Part shown: one piece after another, positions 35,989 to 39,252 of the stretch | How positions within the stretch are numbered: position 1 is the stretch's first letter | How the letters are laid out: the number at the start of each line of letters is the position of its first letter | Assembly: GCF_037860835.1 (NCBI RefSeq) | Contig: NZ_JBBEOG010000012.1 | Span: forward strand, 26,117 to 90,116 | Reading direction: 5' to 3' | DNA from: Aquipuribacter nitratireducens | GTDB lineage: Bacteria > Actinomycetota > Actinomycetes > Actinomycetales > JBBAYJ01 | Length of the DNA stretch: 64,000 nt | Notes under the pieces: generated by a model | Database searches by the model: none | What the model was told of the DNA's origin: nothing | The model's input: only the letters and a program-made list of their open reading frames with translations | Made by a program: the position numbers and the translations under genes

Positions 35989-36617
35989 GCGCCGTGCTCG
36001 CCGTGGTCCTGGCGGTCGTGCTGGCCGCCGGGTGCCTCGTGCTCCTGCCGTTCTCGATGCGGCCTGCCATCGTGACTGGCCCCCCGTGGCGAGGGGCCCT
36101 CGTGGTCGCGGGCCTGCTCGTCCCGCTCGTCGGCGTCGCCCTGCTCGCGCTCGCCGCCGGCCCGCTCGAGGGACTGCTCCTCGGTGTCGTCGTCGCGGCG
36201 ATGCTCGTCGCCGCCGCGGCAGGGGGCTCGCCGATGGCCACCGGGGTCCTGCGCCTCGCCGACCCCGCCGCCGCCCGCGCGAACGAGGGGGTCGCGCTCG
36301 AGCGCGCCGGGTCGGGCAGCGCCCTGCGCCCCGGTGCACCCGCCGGCGCGTCGCCGCTGCCGGTCGTCGCGACCCTCAGCGCCCCCGGGCTGCTGCGCGG
36401 GGGCGCCACCCTCGGCCTGCTCGAACGCGTCGCGACGTTCGGCACCCTCGCCGTCGGGAGCCCGGAGGGGATCGCGGTCGTGCTGGCGGTCAAGGGCCTG
36501 GGCCGCTTCGGCGAGCTCAAGGTCCCCGCCGCACCCGAGCGCTTCATGATCGGGACGTTCGCGAGCGTCCTGTGGGCCTGCGCGTGCTGGGCCGTGGTCG
36601 TCGCGGCGCTCGCGTAG
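35985..36617 (+). CDS. Membrane protein of unknown function, paired with SatD-like protein
   Basis: A 210-residue protein with about three N-terminal helices (SAVLAVVLAVVLAAGCLVLL; GALVVAGLLVPLVGVALLAL; LLLGVVVAAMLVAAAAGG) and one C-terminal helix (MIGTFASVLWACACWAVVVA). The middle about 100 residues are hydrophilic with GLLRGGATLGLLERVATFG and VLAVKGLGRFGELKVPAAPE, the latter conserved-looking. Its GTG overlaps the stop of the SatD-like gene. It ends 26 bases before the left 55-bp palindrome. No function can be assigned. Confidence 0.75.
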   Translation: MSAVLAVVLAVVLAAGCLVLLPFSMRPAIVTGPPWRGALVVAGLLVPLVGVALLALAAGPLEGLLLGVVVAAMLVAAAAGGSPMATGVLRLADPAAARANEGVALERAGSGSALRPGAPAGASPLPVVATLSAPGLLRGGATLGLLERVATFGTLAVGSPEGIAVVLAVKGLGRFGELKVPAAPERFMIGTFASVLWACACWAVVVAALA

Positions 36618-36643
36618 CCGTCGCGCGCCGCCGCCCAGCCTGT

Positions 36644-36698
36644 GAGAGGTCACCCGTACGCGCGACACGCCGGCGTGTCGTCGTACGGGCGACCTCTC
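36644..36698. repeat. 55-bp palindromic element, left copy
   Basis: The outer arms GAGAGGTC and GACCTCTC, then CCCGTACG and CGTACGGG, then CGACACGCC and GGCGTGTCG pair almost perfectly. One A-C mismatch and a one-base bulge remain. The matching copy at 37630-37684 lies on the other side of a nuclease-like gene in the same orientation, with the same bulge asymmetry. Confidence 0.9.
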
Positions 36699-36710
36699 GT
36701 CAGAGAGCGA

Positions 36711-37577
36711 TCACCCGAGGGCCGCGCGGACGCGGGCCACGACGCGACGGGGGTCGTCGACCAGGTCGCGGCCGGTGAGGACGACGACGCGCCAGCCTGC
36801 GGCCTCGAGGCGCTCGCGCCGACCCAGATCGGCCTGCCACTGCCGCCGATCCCTGTGGTGGTCGCCGTCGTACTCCACCACGACGCGCCGCGACGGGTAC
36901 GCGAGGTCGACCCGCGCGACGAACCGGCCCCTGCGGTCGGTGACGGTGTGCTGGACGGCCTCGGGCGCCAGGCCCTCGAGCACGAGCAGAACGCGCAGCC
37001 ACGACTCCCTCGGCGACTCGGCGCGCGTGTCGACGAGCGTGAGGGCCCGGGCCGCCACGTCCGTGCCCCGCCCGCCGCGTCGGGCCTCGAGCAGCCGGAC
37101 CACGACGTGCCGAGCCGCGTCGGAGCGCAGGAGGACGTCCGCGACGGCGACGAGACGGGCGAGACCCTCGTGCCCCGGCGCCGGCCCGGCGAGCGCCGCC
37201 GCGTCGCACCAGGCGCGGCACGGACCGCTGACCGGGACCTCCTCGTCCGCGGTCACGGGCCGCACGGCCGAGCGGTGCACGACCAACCCCGGCGTCCGCC
37301 GGCGCATCGTCGGGGGGACGGTGACGTGCAGCCGCCCGACCTCGTCCGGCGGTACGGGCAGCTCCTCCAGCTCCAGCGCCGTCCAGTGGCTCACGACCGC
37401 CGACGGCACCGCCTCCACCGCCGCGGCGCACCGCGTCAGCAGGTCCTCCGCCCAGCACGCCTCGACGTAGTGACCGGGCACTACCCGGACGAACTCGACG
37501 CCGCCGGTCAGCACCCGCTCGCTGACGCCCTCTCGTCGCGCCCGTTCGCGCGTCCACACCCGGTCCCGGACACCCAC
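36711..37577 (-). CDS. Endonuclease-like protein (DUF559/Vsr-like fold) with N-terminal winged helix, flanked by palindromes
   Basis: A 288-residue protein. Residues about 8-45 (WTRERARREGVSERVLTGG) resemble an AbiEi-type winged helix. The middle is a scaffold with HVTVPPTMRRRTPGLVVHRS. Residues about 188-288 form a restriction-endonuclease-like domain: E191 in PRESWLR, D224 in ARVDLAYPSR, E235 and D237 in VVVEYDGDHH, W247, then RRERLEAAGWRVVVLTGRDL. The acidic residues are all present, so it may be active. No methyltransferase or toxin partner is next to it. It lies 12 bp from the left and 52 bp from the right 55-bp palindrome. Related single genes are frequent in actinobacteria; function unproven. 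Confidence 0.85.
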   Translation of the reverse strand: MGVRDRVWTRERARREGVSERVLTGGVEFVRVVPGHYVEACWAEDLLTRCAAAVEAVPSAVVSHWTALELEELPVPPDEVGRLHVTVPPTMRRRTPGLVVHRSAVRPVTADEEVPVSGPCRAWCDAAALAGPAPGHEGLARLVAVADVLLRSDAARHVVVRLLEARRGGRGTDVAARALTLVDTRAESPRESWLRVLLVLEGLAPEAVQHTVTDRRGRFVARVDLAYPSRRVVVEYDGDHHRDRRQWQADLGRRERLEAAGWRVVVLTGRDLVDDPRRVVARVRAALG

Positions 37578-37629
37578 GGCGCCACAGTGCCGCGGGTCGG
37601 TCCGAGCCCGCTGACGGCCTGTGGACGAC

Positions 37630-37684
37630 GAGAGGTCACCTGTGCGCGCGGCACGCGGGCGTGTCGTCGTACAGGTGACCTCTC
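37630..37684. repeat. 55-bp palindromic element, right copy
   Basis: Begins GAGAGGTCACCTGTGCGC and ends CGTACAGGTGACCTCTC. Compared with the left copy, CCC/GGG in the stem is replaced by CCT/AGG, a change on both arms that keeps pairing. The A-C mismatch of the left copy is an A-T pair here. Confidence 0.9.
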
Positions 37685-37698
37685 ACCGGGCGGCACCG

Positions 37699-39252
37699 TC
37701 ACGTCACCCGGACGGTCACCTCGTCGTAGCCCTGCGCGCCGTCCGGGGCGGGCGGTGCCGGCTCCTCGATCTGCACGTCGCCCGCCTGGTCGATCGCCCG
37801 GACCCGCAGCGTGTGCGAGCCGGGGTCGGCCTGCCACGCCCACCGCCACTGCCGCCACGTGCTGCTCGTTCCCGCGTCCGCGAGCTCCGCCTCCTGCCAC
37901 GGCCCGTCGTCGACCTGCACCTCGACGGCGGCGACGCCCACGTCCATCGCCCACGCGAGACCGGCGACGACGACCTCGCCCGCGCGCACGTCGCTCCCGC
38001 CCGGGCGGTCGATGCGGGAGGAGATCTTCACGGGGCCCCGAGCCGACCAGCCACGCGGGGTCCAGTACCCCTGGTCCTGCGCGAAGGTCGTGAGCGTCAT
38101 CTCGGTGACCCACTTCGTCGCCGACACGTAGCCGTAGAGCCCGGGCACGACGAGCCGCGCCGGGAAGCCGTGCTCCAGCGGCAGCGGCTCGCCGTTCATT
38201 CCGATCGCCAGCAGCGAGTCGCGGTCGTCCGTCATGGCCTCGACGGGGGTGCCGGCGGTGAAGCCGTCGGTGCTGCGCGACAGCACCATGTCGGCGCCGG
38301 GCAGCGGTCGCGCCTCCGCGAGCAGCTCCCGTGTCGGCACCCCGAGCCACAGGGCGTTGCCGACGAGGTCACCGCCGACGCGGTTGCTCACGCACGACAG
38401 CGTCGCCCACTTCTCCACCAGCGGGCGGGCGAGCACGTCGTCCCACGTGAGCTCGACCTCCCGCTCGACCATGCCGCCGATGCGCAGCCGCCAGTCGCGG
38501 GTGGTGAGCCGCGGCACGACGAGCGCGGTGTCGATCCGGTAGAAGTCCGGGTTCGGCGTGCGGAACGGCGCGAGGCCGGGGACGTCGTCGTACGTCCCCT
38601 GCTCCGGCAGCGGGGGGGCCTGCTCGGCGGCCGTCGGCAGCTCGACCGCGGCACGGGCCTCCTCCCCGCCGCGGGCCCCGACCCGCCGCAGCAGCCCGGC
38701 GCCGAGGCCGGCGCCGAGCGCCGCAGCCCCGGTCCCGACGAGCAGCACGACCCGCCGGCGGGGCCCTGCGCCGGTCACCACGAGCCGCGCGAGCAGCACG
38801 CGCAGGACGACGATGCCGACGACCGCGGCCACGGCGCCCGGCAGGACGGACAGGGTGCCCGTGTCCGGCCGGGTGAGCGCGGCGGCGGCCACGGTGACGC
38901 CGAGGGCGGCGGTGAGCAGGGCCCCGAGCGGGGGGCGTCGGCGTTCGAGGACCCCGGCGGTCGCACCGACCAGGGCGGCGACGGTCGCGACGACGGCGAA
39001 GAGGAAGACCTTGTCGTTCGTGCCGAACAGCGCGATGGCGGCGTCCTTCGCCCACGGCGGCGTGAGGTCGACGACCGTGTCCGACACCGCGACGACGGGG
39101 GTCGCCGACCGGCTCGTCACCAGCCCCACGAGCTCGGCCGCGGCGAGGCCCGCCCCGAGCGCCACGAGCCCGGCCGCGGCGTCCCACCACCGGCTCGACG
39201 GCTCGTCGCGGTGCTGCTCGACGGGGGCCACGGGTGCACTGGTGGTGCTCAT
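37699..39252 (-). CDS. Membrane-anchored sulfite-oxidase-like molybdopterin oxidoreductase
   Basis: A 517-residue protein. The N-terminal part has about five helices (AAAGLVALGAGLAAAELVGL; FLFAVVATVAALVGATAGVL; GALLTAALGVTVAAAAL; AVVGIVVLRVLLARLVV; VLLVGTGAAALGAGLGAGLL). The exported part has the molybdopterin domain with the Mo-ligand Cys in WATLSCVSNRVGGDLVGNAL and FPARLVVPGLYGYVSATKWV, then the Mo-co dimerisation domain (VEVQVDDGPWQEAELADAG). It probably oxidises or reduces a small molecule at the outer face. The ATG at 39252 starts just before helix 1. The neighbours are CcdA and a TlpA-like lipoprotein, which support envelope redox work. Confidence 0.9.
   Translation of the reverse strand: MSTTSAPVAPVEQHRDEPSSRWWDAAAGLVALGAGLAAAELVGLVTSRSATPVVAVSDTVVDLTPPWAKDAAIALFGTNDKVFLFAVVATVAALVGATAGVLERRRPPLGALLTAALGVTVAAAALTRPDTGTLSVLPGAVAAVVGIVVLRVLLARLVVTGAGPRRRVVLLVGTGAAALGAGLGAGLLRRVGARGGEEARAAVELPTAAEQAPPLPEQGTYDDVPGLAPFRTPNPDFYRIDTALVVPRLTTRDWRLRIGGMVEREVELTWDDVLARPLVEKWATLSCVSNRVGGDLVGNALWLGVPTRELLAEARPLPGADMVLSRSTDGFTAGTPVEAMTDDRDSLLAIGMNGEPLPLEHGFPARLVVPGLYGYVSATKWVTEMTLTTFAQDQGYWTPRGWSARGPVKISSRIDRPGGSDVRAGEVVVAGLAWAMDVGVAAVEVQVDDGPWQEAELADAGTSSTWRQWRWAWQADPGSHTLRVRAIDQAGDVQIEEPAPPAPDGAQGYDEVTVRVT

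Follow-up and report, generated by a model that had tools for sequence, protein, structure and literature searches.

A predicted AbiEi-Vsr nuclease gene between matched palindromes in Aquipuribacter nitratireducens and its repeat-flanked relatives in Actinomycetota

The palindromes and the gene between them

The window analyzed here is a 64-kb stretch of the Aquipuribacter nitratireducens genome (contig NZ_JBBEOG010000012.1, positions 26,117 to 90,116), and it contains a cassette (36644..37684) in which a single predicted nuclease gene lies between two imperfect palindromes of 55 bp. The downstream palindrome (36644..36698, plus strand) is separated from the stop codon by 12 bp and the upstream one (37630..37684, plus strand) from the start codon by 52 bp. 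These positions, and the shared orientation and bulge of the two elements, are as a preliminary description of the window had given them. The pair is likewise real, although "near-identical," the term used there, is slightly generous for two direct copies with 89% identity to each other. Searched with a degenerate 55-mer at a tolerance of 3 mismatches, the window gave exactly 2 sites and 100 shuffles gave none, and single-stranded folding of the four palindrome strands gave −20.7 to −27.5 kcal/mol (z scores of −5.5 to −6.9 against shuffled sequences). The ends of the 55-mers read GAGAGG..CCTCTC; the GTAG/CGTC tag is not present at these ends, and AAC and GTT are absent from both copies. By eye, the inner core GACACGCCG is common to the window element, an orthologue (L062), and a paralogue (L002). 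No terminator-like site and no sigma-70-like site was found near the palindromes, and an Rfam search of positions 36000 to 38300 gave no family at the gathering score and three subthreshold hairpin matches to microRNA models.

The gene (36711..37577, minus strand) encodes 288 amino acids, with hidden Markov model (HMM) and fold matches to an AbiEi-type DNA-binding module and a Vsr/DUF559-type nuclease domain. Two HMMs together place the AbiEi-like module at residues 7 to 135 (37173..37559, minus strand), and the structural match of the predicted structure to AbiEi covers residues 1 to 183. The nuclease domain occupies residues 187 to 288 (36714..37019, minus strand). Folds were assigned by searching the predicted structure with Foldseek and VIA and by a profile search against solved structures, and both structure and profile searches found a Vsr-like catalytic domain. 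The acidic residues of this domain, E191 (codon 37005-37007), D224 (36906-36908), and E235 (36873-36875; all minus strand), had been numbered correctly and described as intact. E191 and D224 are conserved in all 88 family members, the window gene counted in, and E235 in 84. Pfam matches consist of MTES_1575, DUF559, and a weak DUF2726, and an HUH/Y1 tyrosine transposase domain is absent from them. A defense-system identity was rejected, as PADLOC returned AbiEi models alone and the NCBIfam scan had no match. The protein is predicted to join an AbiEi-type DNA-binding module to a nuclease of the Vsr/I-Bth0305I fold. The gene had been called a lone gene, and this holds for the four neighbors scanned, of which one has weak helix-turn-helix matches, another lacks any Pfam match, a third is a molybdopterin oxidoreductase, and the last matches DsbD weakly. 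No AbiEii nucleotidyltransferase, integrase, or methyltransferase is among them.

Matched repeats flank members of the gene family

The A. nitratireducens genome (G000) contains 8 homologues of the gene by sequence and 10 by profile, and one paralogue is 63% identical to the window protein. The seven other sequence homologues also have repeats on both sides, with letters that differ from locus to locus, and a matrix of left against right flanks has mainly high scores along its diagonal (40 to 111) and low ones elsewhere, apart from a few off-diagonal values of up to 56. We extended the comparison to 88 loci in 21 genomes, namely the 8 of G000 and 80 further loci that were the best by E value among the matches listed, and scored 450-bp left flanks against right flanks with a strict threshold of ≥50 and a looser one of 34. 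Of the 88 real loci, 63 passed the strict threshold (median score, 67). None of 154 shifted intervals did so (median, 29), and mismatched flanks drawn from the same genomes passed in 4 of 438 pairings (median, 28). None of 29 other genes in the same loci with gaps of at least 60 nt on both sides reached this threshold. The looser threshold admitted 81 of 88 real loci, compared with 19% of shifted intervals and 17% of mismatched pairs. Sixteen of the 21 genomes have at least one locus scoring ≥50; in G008, G014, G015, and G017, which contribute one or two loci each, none pass.

The family was present in 27 of 29 genomes in a search of relatives (own genome counted) and in 50 of 149 in a search of the phylum, with 1 to 14 matches each. 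When the best loci of 26 further genomes from the phylum were sampled, 24 were testable, and 12 of these passed the strict threshold, compared with 0 of 552 mismatched pairs. Among 11 loci of named genomes, those of Rathayibacter (two), Compostimonas, and Rhodococcus passed and the other 7 failed. The association of flanking repeats with these nucleases is specific to the gene family, recurrent, and statistically very strong. The family is large, chromosomal, and actinobacterial, and most sampled copies lie between their own matched repeats, which are mostly palindromic or inverted.

Flank matches in the 63 passing loci run both ways in 36 (palindrome-like), are inverted only in 22, and are direct only in 5. 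The form of the repeats varies from single hairpins to tandem arrays, for example one in which GTGATCATGCACG units precede the gene and are reversed after it, and the median distance to the model match is 149 bases for the upstream repeat and 24 for the downstream repeat. At the L004 paralogue (G000 contig C8), 52-bp units form arrays of 5.5 copies (1175-1458) and 4.5 copies (2559-2790) with 99 to 100% match and an inverted relation. Loci L075, L076, L080, L081, L086, L089, L102, and L104, from several genera, constitute a subfamily whose array units are GTGATCATG-like with a TGATCA core, and many of its members lie at nonsyntenic sites. Separately, one homologue (L110; G025 C11:303723-304577) has an internal stop codon and no clearly matched flanks (score, 37) and is possibly a decaying cassette. 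The same-class genomes G065, G100, and G121 have 13, 14, and 10 family matches, four of those in G121 lying within 70 kb on contig C23.

Repeat turnover, solo copies, and rearranged cassettes

Syntenic comparison left 23 pairs past filters, 22 between genomes and one within G028, which are not independent because some share a locus. In 20 of the 23, the repeat score between loci was lower than both scores within cassettes (means of 36 and 85). The repeats thus turn over fast between syntenic orthologues while left and right change together. Among relatives with ≥40% identity and no shared neighbor in DNA or protein comparison, repeats were common to 22 of 194 pairs, compared with 20 of 3,515 less similar pairs; across 2,000 label permutations, made before the protein-level filter, the count averaged 2.7 and never exceeded 10, against the 22 observed.

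For a test of hairpin symmetry, one copy of a pair was folded alone and the other copy was read on that structure (79 foldings, 43 cassettes). Compensatory Watson-Crick changes were seen in 40 of 1,852 pairs, compared with 9.8 (standard deviation, 3.2) of 1,904 when substitutions were placed at random, and 186 pairs in the hairpin arms were broken, compared with 330 under the same random placement. The element of genome G028, whose cassette has two repeat copies identical to each other, shows 8 covarying pairs among eleven distinct copies; the covariation score is 0.159, whereas slid partners reach no more than 0.036. Between the covarying spacers lie invariant boxes such as GAGATCGAC, which suggests sequence recognition together with preserved symmetry, although template switching might give rise to such symmetry as well.

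Repeats also occur apart from the gene. A genome-wide count of the 55-bp element, proposed in the preliminary description, gave 6 copies in the 3.83-Mb genome (≤3 mismatches) and 0 in two same-genus genomes; a 36-bp partial match was found in G002. The palindromes are the only two in the window, as the preliminary description had it, and four more copies lie elsewhere in the genome, away from the gene, two of them apparently between converging gene ends by open reading frame (ORF) assignment. The element of the G028 cassette (L112) occurs in 12 places, ten of them away from its own cassette. Dispersed solo copies were present for two of the three elements searched genome-wide. In G028, an L112 repeat pair brackets an ORF of 222 amino acids without a Pfam match (L190, 1501-2345; G028 C1:61753-62592), as if these repeats can carry a different gene.

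In the same-genus genome G001, the window neighbors are joined and the cassette is absent at the syntenic site, and GGGCGGCACCGT, which in the window lies just beyond the right palindrome edge, is present there. G001 has no cassette at the L002 paralogue site either. Near the G000 position of L002, genome G002 (contig C6, L149) has a long inverted repeat that contains no gene, with CGACACGCCG / CGGCGTGTCG as its arm, to the right of a sugar-isomerase-like gene. Because this adjacent gene (named by eye) also differs, the L002 site is not a clean empty site. Reversal of the cassette between the same neighbors was seen at five loci (9 of the 30 two-sided syntenic pairs).

A proposed self-bounded nuclease cassette and its relation to known systems

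We cautiously favor the explanation that this is a self-bounded single-gene nuclease cassette whose protein recognizes the repeats of the cassette and causes them to recombine or be copied. By analogy with AbiEi antitoxins, which bind inverted repeats in promoters, the AbiEi module would recognize the repeat boxes, and the nuclease domain would nick or cut at the repeats, perhaps on a palindrome extruded as a hairpin. Repair between the repeats could then homogenize both flanks or, where the repeats are inverted, flip the cassette; it could also delete the gene and leave a solo palindrome. Copying of the cassette into a cut solo palindrome would complete a homing-like cycle, with short repeats replacing the intron or intein. 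Gene and repeats would thus likely be copied, inverted, or lost together. The most economical model to fit the features seen would be a nuclease able to read and open the repeats of its cassette, with recombination between them accounting for the other steps.

Several observations weigh against this explanation. Homologues without flanking palindromes, which the preliminary description had taken to tell against the link, do occur in part: 25 of the 88 loci, including all five of G001, fall below the strict threshold, and so do half of the phylum sample (12 of 24) and 7 of the 11 loci from named genomes. Two G000 paralogues score modestly for their own flanks (40 and 44), and some off-diagonal values exceed these scores. 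Of the 22 pairs that share repeats at different sites, 15 belong to a single subfamily, that of the TGATCATG arrays, and sharing within single genomes was 4 of 43 against 5 of 174 (P = 0.08). Covariation is not significant among the six copies of the window element, and the identity within the window pair (89%) does not stand out from that between the pair and the solo copies (83 to 90%). In an exact-arm search, the element of G006 and G024 has no solos beyond its cassettes. The G001 site is the sole clean absence; its left edge is not sharp, and a cut scan does not favor the palindrome edge. Solo sites L010 and L011 have no counterpart in G001 or G002 at an E value of ≤1e-20. Many cassettes lie at conserved loci, which argues for largely vertical inheritance, and no transposition event was caught with one genome per species. 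A phage origin and a plasmid origin were both rejected, with no match in the phage collection and only 4 partial, distant plasmid matches, and these results also speak against mobility.

The preliminary description had proposed an actinobacterial analogue of the repetitive extragenic palindromic (REP)/RAYT system, an interpretation that is supported in part: the analogy is correct in kind, but the enzyme is no RAYT. In such a scheme, the nuclease would act on single-stranded hairpins at replication and spread palindromes in trans, the gene being a resident helper and not cargo. A nuclease-repeat link that recurs, with dispersed solos (4 in G000 and 10 in G028), is as expected of such an analogue, and the strong hairpins, the compensatory changes in their arms, and the bracketed 222-residue ORF of G028 also agree with it. 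Against it stand the missing RAYT enzyme, the low copy number, the element of G006 and G024 that lacks solos, and the 22 of 63 cassettes that match in inverted orientation only, several of which are tandem arrays. Furthermore, we know of no strand-transfer chemistry for a Vsr-type fold, and we consider copying of this kind rather unlikely.

We judge it unlikely, too, that the repeats are static operators or insulators, that is, AbiEi-style autoregulatory binding sites whose two sides match since one protein reads both, with nothing moving. AbiEi antitoxins are described as binding inverted repeats of their own promoters (PMC7319586), boxes such as GAGATCGAC are conserved between variable spacers, and repeats can be common to related proteins, all of which would suit static sites. 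Such sites do not account for repeats on both sides of the gene instead of upstream alone, for the absence of the cassette at the G001 site and its flipping elsewhere, or for solos far from the gene, two of the four apparently between converging gene ends. The spacers covary instead of merely holding a consensus, and neither a terminator-like nor a sigma-70-like site lies nearby.

The palindromes might instead be a passive by-product of template switching or of a miniature inverted-repeat transposable element moved by an unrelated transposase, with nuclease genes merely surviving between them. Template switching alone perfects palindromes and gives compensatory changes, but the specificity for one gene family (none of 29 other genes with gaps and none of 154 shifted intervals) and the tracking of protein relatedness by repeats across sites in at least one subfamily make this very improbable. 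Chance or ordinary terminators around one gene, raised in the preliminary description and sharing with the data the hairpin shape and nothing beyond, were rejected as having a negligible probability, given the family-wide and phylum flank tests, the other genes, the 0 matches in 100 shuffles, and the 0 terminator-like sites.

Tentatively, the cassettes may represent a new superfamily of minimal mobile elements, each consisting of an AbiEi-Vsr nuclease gene and two repeats of its own, without transposase, integrase, intron, or intein. Such elements, with up to 14 members per genome in Actinomycetota, might spread, invert, pop out, and home via their repeats, convergent with REP/RAYT on a restriction-enzyme fold. 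The cassette would work in the manner of REP/RAYT and of homing cassettes but lacks a defining feature of RAYT, of AbiE, and of integron cassettes. Among the papers listed in searches of the open-license literature, preprints being outside the scope, none reports an association between this nuclease family and repeats, and we rate the pairing as new, mobility being its unproven part. A common, unexplained gene family of Actinomycetota thereby gains a testable function, each protein seemingly paired with an adjacent DNA repeat of its own. Mobile or otherwise, each cassette offers a predicted nuclease with a predicted long target alongside, and the 79 matched protein-repeat pairs (63 + 12 + 4) are sufficient to begin reading a DNA-recognition code. 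If the cassettes are mobile, a new class of enzyme would join those behind bacterial mobile elements and behind the emergence of palindromic repeats in bacteria.

Among known systems, Vsr and solitary DUF559 proteins share the nuclease fold and the conserved acidic residues. Vsr repairs T:G mismatches and is found beside a cytosine methyltransferase, whereas no methyltransferase is among the neighbors scanned here. TnsA of Tn7 acts with a DDE transposase and an ATPase; here the nuclease is the sole gene between the repeats, and in contrast to DDE transposons there is no DDE transposase between them. Integron gene cassettes resemble the window cassette in having a single gene next to a palindrome with an asymmetric bulge. 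The attC core is RYYYAAC/GTTRRRY; the window cassette has no attC match and no integrase among its scanned neighbors, and the repeats of the family are cassette-specific. The EDxHD (Vsr-like) homing endonucleases, such as I-Bth0305I, have the Vsr-like catalytic domain in common with the window protein, but here there is no Rfam intron match, both matched repeats stay whole, and the nuclease carries an AbiEi module and belongs to a chromosomal multigene family. Homing endonucleases of this group are carried in an intron or intein or are free-standing genes that home to an allele without the cassette, and an allele of that kind is present in G001. AbiEi antitoxins of the type IV AbiE systems are alike in the N-terminal module by HMM and fold and are known inverted-repeat binders; here, the module is fused to a nuclease, repeats lie on both sides, and no nucleotidyltransferase is among the scanned neighbors. 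REP/RAYT systems share the chromosomal gene, palindromes on both sides, dispersed solos, and several different gene/repeat pairs per genome. They differ in their enzyme, an HUH/Y1 transposase instead of an AbiEi-Vsr nuclease, and in copy number, with REPs described as usually exceeding 100 per genome (PMC2817692), against counts of 6 and 12 for the two elements found dispersed here. They differ also in the GTAG/CGTC tag given as a feature of REP palindromes (PMC3733652), a foot that the window element lacks, whereas many of the cassettes described here have tandem inverted arrays.
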